The notes beneath the pieces were generated by a model. It did no database searches, was not told the DNA's origin, and saw only the letters and a program-made list of their open reading frames with translations. A stretch of DNA of 64,000 nucleotides from Phycisphaerae bacterium. Lineage in GTDB: Bacteria; Planctomycetota; Phycisphaerae; UBA1845; Fen-1342. The position numbers and the translations under genes are program-made. Of the stretch, positions 4,428 to 14,780 are shown piece after piece. The stretch lies in NCBI GenBank assembly GCA_030428945.1, contig JAUIEC010000003.1, forward strand, positions 62,001 to 126,000. The letters are read 5' to 3'. Positions within the stretch are counted from its first letter, which is position 1. Each line of letters begins with the position of its first letter.

Positions 4428-5312
4428 TCATCGCTGCCGCCCGTGCAACGCGTCCCGCACCCCGTCCCCGATGAAGTTCAGACTCAGCAGCGTGACCGAC
4501 AGCAGCACCCCCGGAAACACCAGCAGCCACCAGTCGAACCCGTGCGGACTCAGCACCCGCACCCCGTCCGCCGCCAGCGATCCCCAGGTCGCCTGCGGGG
4601 CCTGCACCCCGACCCCCAGGAAACTCAGGAACGACTCCTGCAGAATCGCCTGCGGAACCGTCAGCGTCGCGAAGACAATCACAGGTCCTATAATACTGGG
4701 CAACAGGTGCCGCCAGAAGATACCGAGCGTCCCCACCCCCAGCGCCCGGGCCGCCTCGACGAATGCCTGCTCGCGCAGGGACAGCACCTGCCCGCGTACC
4801 ACCCGGGCCACCGACAGCCAACTGACACCCCCGATCGCCAGCGCCAGGACGATCAGACGGGCCGCCTCCTTCCCCAGACCCGGGAGGGCTTCCAGCCGCG
4901 GCGCCAGCCCGACCGTCAGCAGCATCACCAGCAGCAGCGACGGCAGCGCATACAACAGGTCCACCAGCCGCATCAGCGCCCCGTCCAGCCGCCCCCCGTA
5001 ATACCCCGCCACCAGCCCGTACACCGTCCCCAGTACGATCGCGATCGCCGCGGACAGAATCCCGAGCGTCAGCGACAACGCCCCGCCGTACAGGCTGCGG
5101 GCCAGCATGCTCCGACCCAGTTCGTCCGTCCCCAGCGGCTCCGCCCAGGTCGGCCCCTGCCGGGCGGCCGACAGGTCCGCCGTCCGCATCGCCGTTCGCG
5201 ACCAGCCGAGCGACAGCAGGCAGGCGGCCGTCATCGTCACCAGCACGACCAGGCTGACCATCGCGGTCGGCTGGCGTCGGAAGCGCTGCCAGGGAGTGCT
5301 GCGAACGATCAT
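4428..5312 (-). CDS. ABC transporter permease, DppC/OppC type
   Basis: The 294-aa membrane protein begins MIVRSTPWQRF. The start is set by an ATGA overlap with the stop of the upstream permease; the frame is open further upstream, but that part only shadows the other gene. It has the N-terminal OppC-like segment, a GTDELGRSMLARSLYGG motif typical of DppC/OppC, and the inner-membrane permease EAA loop (EAARALGVG followed by a WRHLLPS segment) that docks on the ATPase. With the preceding gene it makes a heterodimeric pore for oligopeptides, nickel or similar solutes. No ATPase or binding-protein gene lies beside it, so the substrate is unknown. Confidence 0.9.
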   Translation of the reverse strand: MIVRSTPWQRFRRQPTAMVSLVVLVTMTAACLLSLGWSRTAMRTADLSAARQGPTWAEPLGTDELGRSMLARSLYGGALSLTLGILSAAIAIVLGTVYGLVAGYYGGRLDGALMRLVDLLYALPSLLLVMLLTVGLAPRLEALPGLGKEAARLIVLALAIGGVSWLSVARVVRGQVLSLREQAFVEAARALGVGTLGIFWRHLLPSIIGPVIVFATLTVPQAILQESFLSFLGVGVQAPQATWGSLAADGVRVLSPHGFDWWLLVFPGVLLSVTLLSLNFIGDGVRDALHGRQR

Positions 5313-6244
5313 CCGGAAGCCGCTCCCACCCGGATCCGCGGATCCAGCACCGCGTACAGCAGATCGACGATCAGGTTGAAACCGATCAGGAAGACGCTGT
5401 AGATCAGCACCGTCGCCAGGATCAGCGTCTGGTCGCGATTGTTGATCGACTCCACCACGTGCGTGCCCATCCCCGGAATCGCGAAGATCCGCTCCACCAC
5501 GAACGAACCGGTGAAGATCGCCGCCGCGGCCGGTCCGAGGTAGCTCAGCACCGGCAGCAGCGCATTCTTCAGGGCGTGCTCCATCAGCACGGCCTGCTCG
5601 GACAGTCCCTTGGCCCGCGCCGTCCGGGCGTAGTCCTCCTGCATCGCATCCAGCAGACCCGCCCGCGTCAGGCGGGCGATGTAGGCCGCGTACGGCAGCG
5701 CCAGCGTCAGCGCCGGCAGGAAGATCTGGCTGACCTGCCCCCAGCCGCCGACCGGAACCACCCGCAGCCACAGACCGGCCACGATCAGCAGCGCGGCACC
5801 GGTGACAAAAGTCGGTAACGAAATCCCGATCAGCGTCAGCCCCAGGCTGCAGCGATCCACCCAGCCGTGTGGAAAACGGGCCGCGATCAGACCGGCCGCA
5901 ATCCCCAGCAGCACCGCGAACGTCAGCGCGAACGTCCCGAGCTGCAGTGAAACGGGCAGCGCGTCGCCCATGATCTCGCGCACCGTCCAGTCGGGATACT
6001 GGTGGGCCGGCAGGTCACCGGTCACCAGCAGCCGATACGGCCACGTCCAGAAATAACGCTGCCAGAACGACTGGTCGTAGTTGTAGGCCTTCAGCTTCTC
6101 GGCCAGGACTTCCGGCGGCAGTTCCTTCTCACCGGCCGCGAAGACTTCGCCGGGCGCCTGCGAGATCAGGACGACCGTGAAGAAATAGATCACAAAGACG
6201 AAGATCGGCAGTGCCAGCAGGCGGTTTCGCGCGTATATAAGCAT
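5309..6244 (-). CDS. ABC transporter permease, DppB/OppB type
   Basis: The 311-aa permease has the DppB/OppB layout: a first transmembrane helix at the N-terminus (ALPIFVFVIYFFTVVLI), a large periplasmic loop to about residue 90, then further helices with the permease EAA-type loop (ARTARAKGLS) and the C-terminal LDPRIR motif typical of the family. It overlaps the DppC-type gene by ATGA, so the two subunits are translationally coupled. It is divergent from the STAS gene, with only 43 bp between the two starts. The partner ATPases and the periplasmic binding protein are not in this window. Confidence 0.9.
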   Translation of the reverse strand: MLIYARNRLLALPIFVFVIYFFTVVLISQAPGEVFAAGEKELPPEVLAEKLKAYNYDQSFWQRYFWTWPYRLLVTGDLPAHQYPDWTVREIMGDALPVSLQLGTFALTFAVLLGIAAGLIAARFPHGWVDRCSLGLTLIGISLPTFVTGAALLIVAGLWLRVVPVGGWGQVSQIFLPALTLALPYAAYIARLTRAGLLDAMQEDYARTARAKGLSEQAVLMEHALKNALLPVLSYLGPAAAAIFTGSFVVERIFAIPGMGTHVVESINNRDQTLILATVLIYSVFLIGFNLIVDLLYAVLDPRIRVGAASG

Positions 6245-6287
6245 GAAGGCGACTTAGGTCTCAGATTCCGGAGGAGGACAGGAGTTC

Positions 6288-6671
6288 ATGTCGAAGGCGC
6301 CTGCCTATCTGCAGTTGGCGCAGGCCGGTGCCTGCGCCGTGGCCACGGTGCAGCTCGAAGAACTCCTCTACTCGATGGATGTCGAAGCGATTCATCGGCA
6401 ACTGGAAGATTACCTCTCCGCGACGCCCGGGACCACGCTGATTCTCGACCTTCAGCATGTCCGGGCTGTTTCCAGCGAACTGATCGGCGCCGTCCTGATG
6501 CTTCAGCGCCAGGCCCGCGAAGGCCGCGGCGCGCTTCGACTCTGCGGCCTCGACGAACGCGTCCTGCACATCTTCCAGCTTTCGCGCGTCGATACCACTC
6601 TCGACCTCTATCCCGATGTCGACACCGCTCTGGCCGTCACCCCCGACAACGCCAGGGATACCACCGAGTAG
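6288..6671 (+). CDS. STAS-domain protein (anti-anti-sigma factor-like)
   Basis: The 127-aa single-domain protein matches the SpoIIAA/RsbV-like STAS fold: beta strands around VATVQLEE, a LILDLQHVRAVSSELIGAVL segment where the family carries its phosphorylatable serine, and a later GALRLCGLD strand. Such proteins bind and are phosphorylated by GHKL kinases in partner-switching circuits controlling sigma factors or phosphatases. A GGAGGACAGGAG ribosome-binding region lies just upstream of the ATG. No kinase or phosphatase is next to it, so its partner is unknown. It is convergent with the ferredoxin gene. Confidence 0.8.
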   Translation: MSKAPAYLQLAQAGACAVATVQLEELLYSMDVEAIHRQLEDYLSATPGTTLILDLQHVRAVSSELIGAVLMLQRQAREGRGALRLCGLDERVLHIFQLSRVDTTLDLYPDVDTALAVTPDNARDTTE

Positions 6672-7261: not shown

Positions 7262-8131
7262 CTACAGCGGATACCCCAGGGCCTCCGCGTGGTCGCGAAC
7301 CAGGTCCGCGACCTCCGATCGTTCACGCTCGGACAACTGCCGCCCGCGGCCGATCGCCGCCTGGTTGATTTCGCTGGGGCGCCTGGCCATCACGCCCGGG
7401 TCGCCCAGGCCCCCGAACGCGTTCCGCGGCGTGCTGAAGTCGAGCATTTCGGGCCGGTACAGCAGGCCCAGTTCCGCGCACAGTCGCGGGACGGACATCT
7501 CGGGTTGCAGCACCAGGTCTTCGTACCGGATCGGGGGCTGTTCGATCGTCTGGGCCCAGGAGAGGAAATCGCACCAGTTGCGGGCCGCCCAGCGGACGAT
7601 CGTCAGCCGATCGGGGAAGTAGGGCAGGTCCCGCCAGCGGATCTGCAGCACCCGGCCGATCCAGTTCGTGTTGAACCGCAGCAGCCGGATCGTCGAGGCG
7701 GCCGTGTCGTAGGGGTGTCGGATCAGCAGGGTGGTCCGGTCGGCCGCGGCGGCCCGCAGGTCGCGCAGCAGGCTGGAACTGTTCCAGGACACCGGCAGCG
7801 GGGCCCCGGTCCGCCAGGTCTCCTTGGCCACCAGGCGGGTAAAGCCGCTGGCGGCGGTCAGACGCTCGAGGAAGCGGTGGTAGGCCGAATGCCCGCCCCG
7901 AAAGGGTGGTGTCGTGCGGGCCAGCCCGATCTCGTGCTGCAGGCGGCGGTGGAACCGGTGCATCTTCCAGGTCGGCATGGCCTCGAGCGCCAGGTGCGGC
8001 TCGCTGAGCGAAAGCACGCCCGGCAGCCCGGCCAGGAGGTAGCCGACCAGGGTGGTGCCGCTGCGGGGCGGCCCGATCACGTACGAGGTCGTGACCGGAT
8101 TCGAGTCTTGGAAGTCGCTGCGCGGAACCAT
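7262..8131 (-). CDS. sulfotransferase-family protein
   Basis: The 289-aa protein has the PAPS 5'-phosphosulfate-binding loop GPPRSGTTL at residues 20-28, right after the first beta strand, as in bacterial sulfotransferases. Further on is an IRHPYDTAASTI segment like the 3'-phosphate-binding region and a C-terminal helix rich in charged residues. It would transfer sulfate from PAPS to a carbohydrate, lipid or protein acceptor that cannot be told from sequence. The ATG at 8131 puts the binding loop at the usual distance from the N-terminus; the open frame runs to 8296 but would overlap the divergent ketosynthase-like gene. It faces the lipid-type operon, which may provide the acceptor (inference). 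Confidence 0.8.
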   Translation of the reverse strand: MVPRSDFQDSNPVTTSYVIGPPRSGTTLVGYLLAGLPGVLSLSEPHLALEAMPTWKMHRFHRRLQHEIGLARTTPPFRGGHSAYHRFLERLTAASGFTRLVAKETWRTGAPLPVSWNSSSLLRDLRAAAADRTTLLIRHPYDTAASTIRLLRFNTNWIGRVLQIRWRDLPYFPDRLTIVRWAARNWCDFLSWAQTIEQPPIRYEDLVLQPEMSVPRLCAELGLLYRPEMLDFSTPRNAFGGLGDPGVMARRPSEINQAAIGRGRQLSERERSEVADLVRDHAEALGYPL

Positions 8132-8283
8132 CTTATCGAAACGGTAGGGCGAACCGATCCGGGCCGCAAACAGGCCGGCCCGCGTTGACACCCGTGCGAT
8201 GTTCAAGAATGATAATGGTTTGATTATCGAAATCGCCGCACCGCGCCTGTCGGGTCGTCGATGAACAGGGATGGTGAATCCGG

Positions 8284-9414
8284 ATGAGTACAACATTGAA
8301 GCGTGTCCGCATCGCGGGCACCGGCTCCTTCCTGCCCGGTGACCCGGTCACCAATGACCGGATCGACGACGTCCTCGGGCACCTGACCGATGCGCCGCCG
8401 CGGGTCCAGCAGTTCGCCCGGACCGTCTGCAGGCGAATGCTCGACCAGAGCGGCGTCGAGTCGCGACACTTCGCGATCCACCCCGAGACCCGCGCGCTGA
8501 CCCACAGCATCGCCGGACTCGCCGAACCCGCCGCCCGCAAGGCCCTCGAAATGGCCGGCCGCCAGCCCGAGGACATCGACTTCGTCCTGATCTCGAGCTC
8601 GACCTACGATCGCGGCACCCCGCCGACCTCGGTCCTGCTGCAGGAACGCCTCGGCATCGACGCCTGCGCCGAGATGGAAGTCCACTCGAACTGCTCCGGC
8701 ATCGGCAAGTGCATGCAGGTCGCCTATGACGCCCTCCGCGTCGGCCGCTACAAGACCGCCCTGGTGGTTTACTCGCAGCTCTCCAGCGCCTACCTGCGGG
8801 CCAGCTACTACAACCAGGCCAAGATGAACAAGACCCAGGCCGCCCTGCGCTACATCCTCGCCGACGGCGCCGGCGCGGTCCTGCTCGAAGCCGTCGACGA
8901 CGACGCAGAGAACGTCCAGGGCGAACTGCTCGGCACCTACATGGAAAGCATCGGCGGCAAGCTGCCCCCGGCCATGATGTGCGGCGGCGGCGTCGAAGAC
9001 ATCATGGACTCGCGCAACCCGATCGAATCCGTCTACCAGGAAGGCAAGCACCACCTCGACCAGGACTTCTCGGCCGTCAACAGCTTCGCCGGCCCGCGGC
9101 TCTTCGAGGGCATGCTGCGGATGTTCAAGACGCTCGAGGTCAAGCCCGGCCGGGATGTCGACCACTTCGTCTGGTCGATCCCGACCATGCAGCTTTTCCA
9201 CGACAACGTGCCCGGGTACGTCGAGGAGATGGGCATCAAGGCCGAACAGCTCCAGTTCCGGGCCGCCCGCAGCGGCTACTGCGGCGGGGCGTCCCTGCTG
9301 ATCCACTTCGATGACCTGGTCCGCGCCGGCGAACTGCAGCGCGGACAGACCGCGGTCGTCTACTCGGTCGAATCCAGCAAGTGGATGTCGGCCGGCTTCT
9401 ACCTTCGCTGGTAA
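8284..9414 (+). CDS. ketoacyl-ACP synthase III-like (thiolase fold) protein with altered catalytic triad
   Basis: The 376-aa product follows the FabH/OleA fold throughout: an N-terminal GTGSFLPG segment, the nucleophile loop VHSNCSGIGK with C137, an LADGAGAVLLEA segment, and a C-terminal region ending GFYLRW that matches the GSALVRF end of FabH. Where FabH has His (PHQAN) this protein reads VWSIPT (296-301), and where FabH has Asn (GNTSAAS) it reads GYCGGAS (331-337). So the cysteine is kept but the usual His and Asn appear to be lost, and a second cysteine sits near the Asn site. The fold call is secure; condensation activity is doubtful and may be replaced by acyl transfer or another reaction. 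It heads a tight operon with a methyltransferase and an SDR. Confidence 0.85.
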   Translation: MSTTLKRVRIAGTGSFLPGDPVTNDRIDDVLGHLTDAPPRVQQFARTVCRRMLDQSGVESRHFAIHPETRALTHSIAGLAEPAARKALEMAGRQPEDIDFVLISSSTYDRGTPPTSVLLQERLGIDACAEMEVHSNCSGIGKCMQVAYDALRVGRYKTALVVYSQLSSAYLRASYYNQAKMNKTQAALRYILADGAGAVLLEAVDDDAENVQGELLGTYMESIGGKLPPAMMCGGGVEDIMDSRNPIESVYQEGKHHLDQDFSAVNSFAGPRLFEGMLRMFKTLEVKPGRDVDHFVWSIPTMQLFHDNVPGYVEEMGIKAEQLQFRAARSGYCGGASLLIHFDDLVRAGELQRGQTAVVYSVESSKWMSAGFYLRW

Positions 9415-9419
9415 CGCCG

Positions 9420-9983
9420 ATGTCCTCGTCACCCGCACAGCAGCCGCAGCCGCCGCAGCCGACCGCCCTCGACGCGATCCCGCTGACCGTCCGCGGAATC
9501 GTCTACGCGATCGCGTTCCTCGCCATGATCCTGATCGTCGTGCCCTACGGCGCCAGCCGCTTCGAGGTCTACTTCCCGCAGTGGCACTTCGTCCAACTGC
9601 CGGTCGCCGTCCAGTACATCGGCTGGGCCCTCTTCGCGATCACGCTCGCGATCTACCTGACCGCCTCGTTCCACCTGATGTCCCGTGGCCGCGGGGCGTA
9701 CGTCGAATTCGACCCGCCGAAGGAGTTCGTCGCGACCGGCATGTTCCGCTGGTGCCGCAACCCGATCGCGTTGTGCGTCGTCCTGATGCTGCTGTTCCTC
9801 GCGATCGCCAAGTCGTCGACCGGCGTGCTGCTGCTGTTCCTGGTCGCCGCGCCGCTGGCCCACGCACAGGTGGTCCTGCTCGAGGAACCGCTGCTGCGGC
9901 AGCGCTTCGGCCAGCCCTACGAGGACTTCCTGAACACGGTCCCGCGCTGGATCCCGCGACCGCCGCGTGCGGACGCTCCGTGA
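9420..9983 (+). CDS. isoprenylcysteine/phospholipid methyltransferase-like membrane protein
   Basis: The 187-aa integral membrane protein has four to five hydrophobic helices. Its C-terminal half has the ICMT/PEMT signature: GMFRWCRNPIALCVVLM (the RNP-type cofactor region) and EEPLLRQRFGQPYEDFLNTV followed by PRWIPR, the conserved end of these enzymes. The family uses S-adenosylmethionine to methylate lipids or prenylated groups at the membrane. It starts 5 nt after the ketosynthase-like stop and overlaps the next gene by GTGA, so the three genes form an operon. That argues for methylation of the product or intermediate handled by its neighbours. The methyl acceptor is unknown. Confidence 0.82.
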   Translation: MSSSPAQQPQPPQPTALDAIPLTVRGIVYAIAFLAMILIVVPYGASRFEVYFPQWHFVQLPVAVQYIGWALFAITLAIYLTASFHLMSRGRGAYVEFDPPKEFVATGMFRWCRNPIALCVVLMLLFLAIAKSSTGVLLLFLVAAPLAHAQVVLLEEPLLRQRFGQPYEDFLNTVPRWIPRPPRADAP

Positions 9984-11002
9984 CGGCCGTCATCACCGGC
10001 GCCACCGGCTTCCTCGGCGGGGCACTTGCCCGCGAACTTCTCGAACAAGGCACGCCTGTCCGCGTCCTCGCCCGCCGGCCGGAAGCGGCCGAACCCCTGA
10101 AACAGCTTGGAGCCGAGGTCCACGCCGGCAACCTCGAAGACGCCGCCAGCCTGTGCGGCCTGATCGAAGCCGGAGATGTCGTCTACCACTGCGCCGCGCG
10201 GGTCGACCTGTCGGGCCCGCTCCGCGACTTCGAGCGGACCAACGTCGAGGGAACCCAGAACCTGCTCGACGCCTGCCGCGACAACCAACCCGGTCGCTTC
10301 GTTTTCGTCAGCTCCGGCGCCGTCTACGGCGCGGCCGCGTTGAACGAGCGCGTTTCTGCCGACCGCATTCCGGCCGAGCCACTGGCGTACAACTTCTACG
10401 GGCGAACCAAGCGGGCGGCCGAGCAGCGCGTCGAGGCGGCGGCGGCGCGGGACGGCTTCGATTACGTCATTCTCCGCCTTGGGTTCCTGTACGGCGTCGG
10501 GAATCGTCCGCTGCTGGACCACGTCGAACCGCTGATGCGCAAAGGCCGTTACGTGCTGATGGGCAAGGGGAAGAATCGGATCGCGACACTCGACATCGCC
10601 GACGCTGTCGCGGCCACGATTGCCGTCGGCACCCACCCGGCCGCGGCCGGCCGGACCTACGACGGCGCCAGCAGCGAAGCGGTCACGCAGCGCGAGTTCT
10701 TCGCGGCCACGGCCGAGGCGCTGGGCTGTTCGACTCGGTTCCGCGACATCCGCCTGTCGCTGGCCCGCCCGCTGGCCCGCGTGGCGGAGTGGACCTGCGG
10801 CCTGCTTGGCCGCCCGGCCCCGCTGACGCGGGCGATGGTGGACCTGCTCGGCGCCGACCAGCAGATCGACAGCAGCGCGATGCGGGATGAACTCGGCTGG
10901 GAGCCGAAAGTCAGCTTCGCGGAAGGGATGCAGCGGATGCGCGAGTGGTACGCTGGGGAGGGAGCGAGGGAACGAGGGAGCCAGGGAGCGAGGAGAGAGT
11001 GA
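9980..11002 (+). CDS. extended SDR / NAD-dependent epimerase-dehydratase (3-beta-HSD/OleD-like)
   Basis: The 340-aa protein uses a GTG start overlapping the upstream stop (GTGA). It opens with the Rossmann motif TGATGFLGG (7-14), has the catalytic serine region VSSGAVYG (110-117) and the Y140-x3-K144 pair. The C-terminal half resembles the 3-beta-hydroxysteroid dehydrogenase branch that includes OleD and sterol dehydrogenases. It would oxidise or reduce a hydroxyl/keto group, or epimerise a sugar; the lipid context favours the first. The last 15 or so residues (EGARERGSQGARRE) are encoded by an 8-bp GAGGGAGC repeat array, so the original C-terminus may have been extended by the repeat. Confidence 0.85.
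   Translation: MTAVITGATGFLGGALARELLEQGTPVRVLARRPEAAEPLKQLGAEVHAGNLEDAASLCGLIEAGDVVYHCAARVDLSGPLRDFERTNVEGTQNLLDACRDNQPGRFVFVSSGAVYGAAALNERVSADRIPAEPLAYNFYGRTKRAAEQRVEAAAARDGFDYVILRLGFLYGVGNRPLLDHVEPLMRKGRYVLMGKGKNRIATLDIADAVAATIAVGTHPAAAGRTYDGASSEAVTQREFFAATAEALGCSTRFRDIRLSLARPLARVAEWTCGLLGRPAPLTRAMVDLLGADQQIDSSAMRDELGWEPKVSFAEGMQRMREWYAGEGARERGSQGARRE
10958..10997. repeat. GAGGGAGC-family 8-bp array, left arm of a 34-bp perfect inverted repeat
   Basis: Octamers GAGGGAGC, GAGGGAAC, GAGGGAGC, CAGGGAGC follow one another inside the last codons of the SDR gene. Positions 10959-10992 are an exact reverse complement of 11133-11166. The two arms bracket a 140-bp spacer that itself contains a small dyad. 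Confidence 0.92.
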
Positions 11003-11132: not shown

Positions 11133-11166
11133 CTCGCTCCCTGGCTCCCTCGTTCCCTCGCTCCCT
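11133..11166. repeat. GAGGGAGC-family array, right arm of the 34-bp inverted repeat
   Basis: This is the exact reverse complement of 10959-10992, made of GCTCCCTC-type octamers. It ends 64 bp before the ATG of the alkaline-phosphatase-superfamily gene, so it lies in that gene's leader or promoter region. Confidence 0.92.
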
Positions 11167-11230
11167 TCCCCTTGACTCTCCCCCCGCGCCGCGCGAGCAT
11201 CCACACGGGTAAACCACCGCGAAAGGCACC

Positions 11231-12820
11231 ATGGCCAGGCATCCCAACATTCTGCTGATCGTCGTCGACTGCGCACGGGCCGACAAATGGCTCGGGCCCG
11301 ACCGCTCCGTCCATACGCCGAACCTCGATCGCCTCGCGGCCGGGGGGACGGCGTTCAATACCGCCATTACCGAAAAAAGCTGCACGACGCCCAGCTTCTC
11401 GACCCTGCTGACCGGGCAGTACAGCCCGCTGCACGGGGTGCACCTGGTCTGGGGCTACCGCCTGCCGCAGAGCGTGCCGATGCTGACCGAGCCGTTCAAG
11501 GCGGCCGGCTATCACACCTACGCCGAGGTCAGCGGGCCGCTGCTGCCCGAGATGGGCCTCGCCCGCGGCTTCGACGAGTACCACTACCGGGCCCCGTGCG
11601 ACCACCTGCACACGGCCTGGGGCGACCAGTTCCTCGAGAAGATCCGCGGCGGCTACAAGGGCCCCTGGCTGACCATGCTGCACATCTGGGAACTGCACCC
11701 GCACCGCTACGTCGATGACCACTACAACAGCGACCAGTACGGCCGCGACGAGTACGAACGCGCCATCAGCAGCCTCGACGTGCAGCTTGGCCGGATCTTC
11801 GACGCGGTCGACGACAACACGATCATCGCCTTTACCGGCGACCACGGCGAGAAGACGCACTTCGAACAGTACCAGCCCGGAACGGCCGTCGAGTACGCCC
11901 GCGAACTGCTCGGCATCGACGACGCGACCGGCATGGCACCCTACGCGGTGGCCGGCTGGGCCGGGCCGAGCGTGCTTCAGGAGATGTACGGCAAGTGCAC
12001 GCCGCTGATGCGCGACGTGCGGTTGCGCGACCGCAAGCCGCCGACCAAGCCGTCAATCTGGCGGCGGATGCGCGACCGCTGGAACGTGCTGCGCCTGACG
12101 CCGATGGTCTACTTCCACGACCTGCTCGCACTCGGGGCGCCGCTCAAGCTGACGAAGATGCTCGAACGCCGCGGCCTGCTCGACCCGAACCGCTCGAAGA
12201 AGAAGGTCGAGAAGATGGTCGATCGCATCGGCACCGACGAACTGCTCGACATGCACATGCGGATGTGGATCAACTCGTACCGGCACAACTACGACGAGGG
12301 ACACATGGTGCACGTGTATGATTTCCTCGTGCGGGTGCCCTTCGTCCTCCACGGACCAGGCGTCCCGCCCGGGGTGCTGCACGAGCGGATGGTCCGCCAG
12401 CCGGACTTCATGCCGACCCTGATGGACCTCGCCGGCGTGCCGAACGACAAGGCCGGCCAGATCGCCGGACGCAGCTTCCGCCCGCTGCTCGACGGCCAGC
12501 CCTGGGAACCTCGCCCGGCGTTCGTCTCCGTCTCGGGCTGCCCGGCCGACCTCGAAATCCGCGGCGTCCGCACCGAAACACACAAATTCACCTACGGACC
12601 CGAGAACGACCAGTTGCCGGCCGAACTCTACGACCTGCGGGCCGACCCCGGCGAGCGGAACAACATCATCGCCGGACACCCCGAACGCGCCGCCGAACTG
12701 AAGGCCCTGGCCGACTCGTTCGTTCCCGCCGACGGCGCCGCCGCGATCGACGCGATGGAACTCAGCGAAGGCGAACGCTCGCAGGTCGAGAAGCAACTCG
12801 AAGAACTGGGATACCTGTAG
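11231..12820 (+). CDS. alkaline phosphatase/sulfatase superfamily hydrolase with Thr in place of formylglycine Cys
   Basis: The 529-aa cytoplasm-start protein has the superfamily frame: metal-binding IVVDCARAD (11-18), a nucleophile loop SCTTPSFSTLLTG (50-62), TGDHGE for the second metal site, and sulfatase-type C-terminal segments (RVPFVLHGPG, DLAGV, ELYDLRADPGE). In true sulfatases the loop is C/S-x-P-x-R with Cys or Ser matured to formylglycine. Here the nucleophile position is T52 and the Arg is F56, so formylglycine maturation is not expected. A phosphodiesterase, phosphatase or phospho-head-group transferase role is more likely than sulfate ester hydrolysis. No signal peptide is evident. 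It follows the lipid-type operon after a repeat-filled spacer. Confidence 0.82.
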   Translation: MARHPNILLIVVDCARADKWLGPDRSVHTPNLDRLAAGGTAFNTAITEKSCTTPSFSTLLTGQYSPLHGVHLVWGYRLPQSVPMLTEPFKAAGYHTYAEVSGPLLPEMGLARGFDEYHYRAPCDHLHTAWGDQFLEKIRGGYKGPWLTMLHIWELHPHRYVDDHYNSDQYGRDEYERAISSLDVQLGRIFDAVDDNTIIAFTGDHGEKTHFEQYQPGTAVEYARELLGIDDATGMAPYAVAGWAGPSVLQEMYGKCTPLMRDVRLRDRKPPTKPSIWRRMRDRWNVLRLTPMVYFHDLLALGAPLKLTKMLERRGLLDPNRSKKKVEKMVDRIGTDELLDMHMRMWINSYRHNYDEGHMVHVYDFLVRVPFVLHGPGVPPGVLHERMVRQPDFMPTLMDLAGVPNDKAGQIAGRSFRPLLDGQPWEPRPAFVSVSGCPADLEIRGVRTETHKFTYGPENDQLPAELYDLRADPGERNNIIAGHPERAAELKALADSFVPADGAAAIDAMELSEGERSQVEKQLEELGYL

Positions 12821-12928: not shown

Positions 12929-12950
12929 ATCGCCCCGGACTCCGCCCGTG

Positions 12951-14780
12951 ATGCCAGGGTGGATCTCCAGACCGAGCTTTGCCGCAGCCGCGTTGGTGCT
13001 GTTGGCGATTACTTTTGTCGGCCACGGCGGCAGTCTCTACGACGGGCTGTTCTTCGACGACTACTGGCACCAGGTCACGCTCGGTACCTATGGCTGGAGC
13101 TTCGACGACCTGGTCGAGTCGGCCACCTTCGACGTGCCCGGCGAACTGGTCCAGCACTGGTGGCAGACCGAGCCGCTGAAGTGGCGCTACGCCCGCCCGG
13201 TCGCGATGTTCTTCATGAAGATCGAGTACGTCCTCAGCGGCGGCGACGGGTTCTACGTCCACGCGTTCGCGCTGCTCTGGCACTGGCTGACCGCCGTGCT
13301 GGTCTGGCGACTCGCCGCCTGGGCCCTGCGACACAACGGCTGGGCACTGCTGGCCGCCGGCCTGTTCGTCATCGAACCGCAGTCGGCCATCGGCATCAGT
13401 TGGATCGCCGCCCGCAACGCCGGCATCAGCGGACTGCTGTTCATGCTCGCCGTCGTGCTCTACGCCCGGACCGTCTTCCCGCTCGACAGCGACCGGCCGC
13501 TGCGCCGGCAGTGGCCGTGGATCGCGGGGGCGGCGTTCGCGTGGCTGGCCGCACTGTTCAGTCGCGAGACGGCCATCGTTTTTCCGCTGGTCGTGCTGAC
13601 CCTCGACCTGCTGCGCGGCTGGCGGGCGGTCTGGAATCGCTGGGGCGTCTACGTCGTGCTCGGGGTCGTCGGTCTCGGGTACCTCTACTGGCGGCTGCTG
13701 GTGTTTCCGACGATCGACCCGCCGGACATCTACTTCACCGCCCCGAGCGGACCGGGTTACCTGCTCTGGGCCGTCAGCAAGCTGCTGCAGATGCTGGTGG
13801 CCATGTGGTGGCACCTGCCGCTGTTTCTCGGCATCGCCACCTATGACGGCTTGAGCGCCGACCTGGTGCTGACCCACCTCGCGCTGCTCGTGATGATCGG
13901 CATCATCGCCTTCTGGTACCTGCGCACCTGCCGAAGCGAGCCGACCCGCTGGGTCTGGCCGATCTGGGTCGTGGCCGCCTTCGCCCCGGTCATCCCGGTC
14001 TTCATGATGCCGCACTTCGGCTACCTGGCCGCACCTGCCGTCTCGATCATGCTCGCGATCATGCTGCGGCACCTGCGCGGCCGCAAGCAGATCGGGCTGC
14101 TGGTGCTGATCGTCGCGTCGCACTGCTGGTCGCTGGCGATCTACCGTTTCGTCTGGCGTGGCATCGTTCGCAGTGAGCAGTTGATTTACGACCACATGAC
14201 GTACCAGGACGGCGCACCGTCGCCGGGCACGCAGTTGTTCCTGATCGATCTGCCGGTCTGCGGCATCTACAACGCGGTCGCCATGCGGGCCGCCTGGCAG
14301 CAGTCCGACCTGCAGAGCCACGTCCTGACCTACGCGCCGCATCCGCTGCAGGCCGACATCGATTCGACCGTCGAGGTCGTCGACGCGCGGACCCTCATCG
14401 TTCGCGCCGCCCCGCCCGGATACTTCGCCGGCATGAGCGGGGCGATGCTGCTCGACGGCATGCGGGCCGGGCTGCCGCTCGAGGTCGGCGACGTCATCGA
14501 GCACGCCGCCTTCACCGTCACCGTGCTCGACAAGCAGGACGGCGGCGTCACCGGGTTGCGGTTCGTCTTCCCGCGCCCGCTGGCCGACCCCGGCTATCGC
14601 TTCTATGTCAGCAGCCTCGACGGTCCGGCCCGCCGGCTTCGCTTCGACGACGCCCCCGAGCCCCCGGTCCCGTTCAACGAGGTCTACGCCACGCAGTTCC
14701 GCGAACGCCGGGCCTACTTCGCGATCCTCGAGTTCATCGGACAGTTCGTCGAGTCGGACCTCGTCATGACCGGCAAGTGA
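12951..14780 (+). CDS. GT-C type membrane glycosyltransferase-like protein (TMTC-related, no TPRs)
   Basis: The roughly 609-aa protein has about ten transmembrane segments up to residue 400, then a soluble beta-rich tail (DSTVEVVDARTLIVRAAPPG onward). Motifs parallel the TMTC-like protein at the start of the window: an acidic FFDDYW loop near 36-41, RPVAMFFMK near 83, an HxxxLLWHWLTA helix, FVIEPQSAIGISWIAARNAG near 142-160, and SRETAI near 204. It lacks TPRs. It is likely a polyprenol-linked sugar transferase or relative; the donor and acceptor are unknown. The start is ATG 12951; a GTG directly before it (12948) is possible. Confidence 0.72.
   Translation: MPGWISRPSFAAAALVLLAITFVGHGGSLYDGLFFDDYWHQVTLGTYGWSFDDLVESATFDVPGELVQHWWQTEPLKWRYARPVAMFFMKIEYVLSGGDGFYVHAFALLWHWLTAVLVWRLAAWALRHNGWALLAAGLFVIEPQSAIGISWIAARNAGISGLLFMLAVVLYARTVFPLDSDRPLRRQWPWIAGAAFAWLAALFSRETAIVFPLVVLTLDLLRGWRAVWNRWGVYVVLGVVGLGYLYWRLLVFPTIDPPDIYFTAPSGPGYLLWAVSKLLQMLVAMWWHLPLFLGIATYDGLSADLVLTHLALLVMIGIIAFWYLRTCRSEPTRWVWPIWVVAAFAPVIPVFMMPHFGYLAAPAVSIMLAIMLRHLRGRKQIGLLVLIVASHCWSLAIYRFVWRGIVRSEQLIYDHMTYQDGAPSPGTQLFLIDLPVCGIYNAVAMRAAWQQSDLQSHVLTYAPHPLQADIDSTVEVVDARTLIVRAAPPGYFAGMSGAMLLDGMRAGLPLEVGDVIEHAAFTVTVLDKQDGGVTGLRFVFPRPLADPGYRFYVSSLDGPARRLRFDDAPEPPVPFNEVYATQFRERRAYFAILEFIGQFVESDLVMTGK

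Follow-up and report, generated by a model that had tools for sequence, protein, structure and literature searches.

We found that a KAS III-like gene, an integral-membrane methyltransferase gene and an extended SDR gene form a real, conserved and lineage-restricted operon that, judged by sequence comparison, is inherited together. We put at about 0.5 the probability that these genes together, as one inherited unit, serve the biosynthesis of a methyl-capped long-chain lipid, which would probably be decorated in the envelope. The operon lies in a 64,000-nucleotide stretch of Phycisphaerae bacterium GCA_030428945.1 (contig JAUIEC010000003.1, positions 62,001-126,000 of the forward strand; hereafter the window), whose genome comprises 5.5 Mb in 33 contigs. 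All three genes are on the + strand: the KAS III-fold gene, nearest to StlD/DarB (KAS; 8284-9414, ATG start, 376 aa, Pfam ACP_syn_III and ACP_syn_III_C), the ICMT/PEMT-type methyltransferase (MT; 9420-9983, ATG start, 187 aa, Pfam PEMT) and the SDR (9980-11002, GTG start, 340 aa, Pfam Epimerase and related SDR families). Their coordinates agree with the near-contiguity described in an earlier sequence-only reading of this DNA, with 5 nt between KAS and MT and a GTGA overlap between MT and SDR. No description of the three-gene set was found in the open-access literature.

The distribution of the operon was assessed in 61 genomes, the window's own and 60 relatives, with locus counts based on tblastn and a home-made gene caller. 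KAS homologues formed a discrete group of 34 at 427 bits or more, from 25 genomes, with the next-best match at 87 bits. The refuting outcome named in the sequence-only reading, a lack of linkage between the three families in relatives, did not occur: within the fetched flanks, and including the window, MT lay beside KAS in 22/34 loci and both MT and SDR in 18/34. Contig ends truncate loci L028, L054, L031, L024 and L029, the last of which (the same locus as L062) stops 994 bases past KAS, with no SDR seen there. A second scan using the sequence patterns LR[YW]ILADG and VESSKWM, which overlaps the 61-genome set in many genomes, returned 41 KAS loci. Thirty-seven were planctomycete MAG records at 51-66% identity, where MT was near KAS in 26 and SDR too in 23 of those 26 (counts read from rows); the four distant loci, at 33-37% identity, came from Margulisbacteria, Desulfomonile (two) and Taylorbacteria. 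Directly after the KAS homologue in the Margulisbacteria and Taylorbacteria loci (L093 and L095) is a histidine kinase, of the 7TM type by Pfam in L095, where a response-regulator-like gene precedes it. In a phylum-wide sample KAS was present in 3/246 genomes at E ≤ 1e-40, the own genome counted, and the family is therefore not general in Planctomycetota. Viral contigs yielded no relative; four stretches fitted a pattern and none was confirmed.

Presence of the partner genes followed that of KAS across genomes. MT orthologues (at least 82 bits) occurred in 24/25 genomes with KAS and 0/36 without (Fisher P = 4e-16), and SDR orthologues (at least 184 bits) in 23/25 and 0/36, respectively (P = 8e-15), both uncorrected for relatedness and with post hoc cut-offs chosen with the scores in view; the next scores below them were 43 bits for MT and 175 bits for SDR, the latter in the KAS-less genome G037. 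The sole KAS-positive genome without MT is G028, whose KAS lies where a contig ends. Genome G008 carries KAS on contig C12 and MT, SDR and the hydrolase together on C15, unlinked yet retained; in G043 the SDR was found on a separate contig. Among the 18 complete loci, distance matrices were correlated between KAS and MT (r = 0.69), KAS and SDR (r = 0.86) and MT and SDR (r = 0.84), compared with a maximum of 0.55 in 2000 permutations.

Ten of the 34 KAS copies have real flanks with neither MT nor SDR adjoining, and these look like additional copies or, for G008, the unlinked one. Every genome of the 61-genome set that contains such a single copy carries an operon copy too or, in the case of G008, MT and SDR elsewhere. 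Single copies were nested within operon clades several times in the KAS tree, with at least three changes forced by the starred branches; the nine 'solo' rows of the tree include L075, which has just 740 bases on its right. The single copies in L038, L041, L043, L044, L052 and L053 adjoin an ECF sigma factor and a kinase-like gene. In G036 only two ECF matches exceeded 100 bits, one of them beside the single KAS, and in G042 an ECF sigma gene lies at a distance of about 0.7 kb from a broken KAS remnant (G042:C121:5020-5355; 46% over 108 residues, one stop).

Few makers of C-C bonds are understood as well as the KAS III enzymes, whose His/Asn pair is normally regarded as necessary for condensation. 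The window protein has the KAS III (thiolase) fold with a conserved Cys, as indicated by Pfam matches over cut-off and an AlphaFold model (mean pLDDT 93.4) with fold neighbours StlD (Z = 44.4), FabH (40.6), PqsD (40.2), AbyA1 (39.8) and OleA (37.9). StlD also ranked first in a PDB profile search, and the best NCBIfam model was StlD/DarB (NF005293), at 113.7 bits and thus below its 450-bit cut-off. PF08541 had three matches in the own genome: the window KAS, a FabH and a DpgA-like type III PKS. The PKS locus, outside the window (L107 6634-9725; 132 of 425 bits on the DpgA-like model), adjoins a geranylgeranyl-reductase-family flavoprotein and, by eye, an apparent SAM methyltransferase.

We aligned 42 KAS-family sequences with the own-genome FabH, a planctomycete DarB (StlD-like) and five planctomycete OleA-type sequences, one of which, L113, was compared with OleA structures, to examine active sites. 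Cys137 was kept in 42/42 family members. The column of the usual His held Ser in 38, Thr in two and Asn in two (Ser298 in the window copy; His 0/42), and that of the usual Asn held Tyr in all 42 (Tyr332; Asn 0/42), whereas both residues were present in the FabH, the DarB and 5/5 OleA sequences. The family shares with StlD/DarB, which serve dialkyl-cyclohexanedione and resorcinol synthesis, the Cys and the Q260/D261 pair, but Cys is the only one of the three catalytic residues kept, with Ser298 at the position of StlD H302, and KAS differs further in its fixed partners, which are an ICMT-type methyltransferase and an SDR. Three other residues, His134, His256 and His257, were invariant in 42/42 sequences, and the own-genome FabH likewise carries His in the 256 column. 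Invariance at LR[YW]ILADG and VESSKWM is biased because both were search patterns; the Cys, His, Asn and Tyr positions fall outside them. Two distant homologues from other planctomycete families, retrieved by profile only (L105 and L106), keep Cys137, His134, His256-257 and Tyr332 but not Asp261 (by eye). Both are found with a 3-hydroxyacyl-CoA dehydrogenase and, by eye, an enoyl-CoA hydratase, and L106 additionally has a FabD-like acyltransferase. An enzyme without this His and Asn would not be expected to perform the usual decarboxylative Claisen step, which counts against a condensing role.

Such an active site could also belong to an acyltransferase of the kind represented by CerJ and ChlB3, which would transfer an acyl chain carried on ACP or CoA onto an oxygen or nitrogen, in which case no C-C bond would be made and MT and SDR would tailor the acylated molecule. 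We regard this as doubtful. The KAS family shares with those enzymes a KAS III fold with altered catalytic residues, its loss of the condensation His and Asn with Cys retained fits this reading, and PMC9573744 describes ChlB3 (triad Cys113/His296/Asp301) and likewise CerJ as KAS III-fold acyltransferases with changed triads. As that source presents them, however, CerJ and ChlB3 retain the Cys-activating His together with Asp, whereas KAS has Ser and Tyr at the usual His and Asn positions and its invariant His residues elsewhere in the sequence; the nearest family, StlD, is moreover a condensing enzyme.

The SDR has a kept glycine-rich motif and Tyr140 and Lys144 invariant in 18/18 aligned sequences, so that by these residues its active site is intact. 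Its best NCBIfam model was OleD (NF042422), in line with the OleD likeness proposed by the sequence-only reading, although the score of 160.4 bits against a 580-bit cut-off leaves the gene well short of an OleD assignment. Units of the GGGAGCGA type form a 38-nt inverted repeat (97%) at window positions 10955-10992 and 11133-11170, the first arm of which encodes the C-terminal residues of the SDR. The 33-mer of the repeat, with up to three mismatches, occurs 353 times in the genome compared with 257 for a control read backwards, indicating that the units are dispersed low-complexity arrays.

A strict OleA/OleD-like route would join two acyl-CoAs head to head into a 2-alkyl-3-keto acid, have the SDR reduce it and replace beta-lactone formation with methylation. 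The best model of the SDR fits this route, the thiolase superfamily and SDR type are shared with the pathway of long-chain olefin and beta-lactone synthesis, and PMC7064751 describes both the reduction of the OleA product by OleD and the existence of oleADC clusters without oleB. We nevertheless consider it unlikely, given the low SDR score and the properties of KAS. On NF006720, a model that selects planctomycete OleA and is common to the OleA sequences used, KAS scored 37.1 bits against a cut-off of 285; the top planctomycete match of this model, L113, fits OleA structures in the PDB at E 5e-63. Together with the missing OleA His and Asn, this score rules out KAS as an OleA, and the OleA likeness claimed for the first gene gave way to one with StlD/DarB. 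Among the genes adjoining the three, neither OleB nor OleC was seen, as the sequence-only reading had remarked, and unlike in the Ole systems a membrane methyltransferase sits in the middle.

This middle gene matched Pfam PEMT at 36.2 bits (cut-off 25), confirming the position claimed for a membrane methyltransferase, and scored 30.8 bits on the protein-S-isoprenylcysteine methyltransferase model NF040696, below the 160-bit cut-off. R113, P115, E155 and E156, which belong to the C-terminal R-x-P and EE motifs, are invariant in the family, and a family profile retrieved solved ICMT structures. The ICMT model was matched by 21/21 members and that of the Leptospira lipid A methyltransferase LmtA by 17/21 (E ≤ 0.001), with P0002 itself under both cut-offs. 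On the PEMT score and motifs, MT is therefore an ICMT/PEMT-type membrane methyltransferase. BpsB, too, is an ICMT-type methyltransferase. RhlM, an ICMT-family enzyme, methylates rhamnolipid carboxyls according to PMC11069360, which also reports that its conserved His and Glu contact SAM. MT belongs to the same integral-membrane family as RhlM and LmtA, but similarity is low and 22/22 members have RNP (Asn114) where solved ICMTs have RHP, such that the SAM-contacting His present in solved ICMTs and RhlM is absent.

Pfam also agreed with the sequence-only reading on two neighbours, a divergent sulfotransferase (7262-8296, - strand; Sulfotransfer_3) and a downstream member of the alkaline-phosphatase/sulfatase superfamily (11231-12820, + strand). 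The true start of the sulfotransferase is uncertain because its longest ORF runs into the KAS start. Since a sulfotransferase was near only 2/33 other KAS loci, we dropped it as a part of the module, and the proposed sulfation of the product is weakly supported. Elsewhere in the window, oligopeptide-ABC-type permease genes occupy 4428-6671 on the - strand (by eye), adjoined by a STAS-domain protein on the + strand. An alkaline-phosphatase-fold gene recurs near part of the KAS loci, being frequent and not universal. The 11231-12820 family has Thr at the nucleophile position in 5/5 aligned members that passed the length filter (Thr52 in the window) and not the Cys or Ser of formylglycine sulfatases, which is more in keeping with a phosphatase or phosphodiesterase than with a sulfatase. 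The membrane protein encoded at 12948-14780 (+ strand), a recurrent neighbour of the operon, has no Pfam match and, from comparison of its model, whose mean pLDDT is only 75, a predicted GT-C glycosyltransferase fold. The nearest folds were ArnT (Z = 20.5 over 410 residues, rmsd 5.8; Foldseek E 1.1e-5) and oligosaccharyltransferases. Some KAS loci have WS/DGAT/condensation-type acyltransferases, hexapeptide acyltransferases or an LPG_synthase_TM protein, and no ACP, acyl-CoA ligase or thioesterase was recurrent beside the operon genes (by eye). The lineage-specific methylated lipid foreseen by the sequence-only reading accordingly stands as a plausible guess, with a kept unit and envelope- or lipid-type neighbours in part of the loci in its favor.

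A regulatory or signalling role, in which KAS would either be such a component or make one and the operon would yield a signal lipid, is improbable. In its favor, two families have single KAS copies next to an ECF sigma factor and a gene resembling Ser/Thr kinases, histidine kinases adjoin the distant homologues of Margulisbacteria and Taylorbacteria, and a link between DarB-type products and non-AHL LuxR receptors is reported (PMC4414361). Against it, the independent events are few (about two within planctomycetes) and were spotted post hoc, genomes carry 13-26 ECF sigma factors each at E ≤ 0.001, and the window KAS copy is without a regulatory neighbour.

For the methyl-capped lipid that we favor, gene identity, co-inheritance and active-site make-up were seen by sequence, and from these we infer each of the reaction steps. 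An acyl-ACP or acyl-CoA would load onto Cys137 of KAS. In place of the usual His and Asn, the enzyme would employ other residues to join this acyl chain, or transfer it, to a second substrate, and His134, His256 and His257, which may act on Cys137, are the candidates. The SDR would then reduce the ketone of the KAS product, and MT, in the membrane, would methylate the product at an acidic oxygen, either carboxyl or enol. Methyl esterification would also keep a beta-keto acid from losing CO2, leaving no need for OleB/OleC-type chemistry. In loci that have a GT-C glycosyltransferase, acyltransferases or the Thr-type hydrolase, these enzymes may decorate the envelope lipid or remodel it. A two-gene parallel is bpsA-bpsB of B. 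subtilis, in which a type III PKS and a methyltransferase make alkylpyrones, as described in PMC5686519.

More tentatively, the KAS family may be a separate thiolase-fold class, spread over Planctomycetota, Margulisbacteria, Taylorbacteria and Desulfomonile, in which Cys and the family's own His134 and His256-His257 replace Cys-His-Asn and which, in planctomycetes, would make new methylated envelope or signal lipids. A conserved family that replaces both His and Asn raises the question of which reactions the thiolase fold can do without them. The operon also suggests that planctomycetes, a largely uncultured group with poorly known envelope chemistry, have an uncharacterised lipid, and its three genes are few enough for expression and testing.
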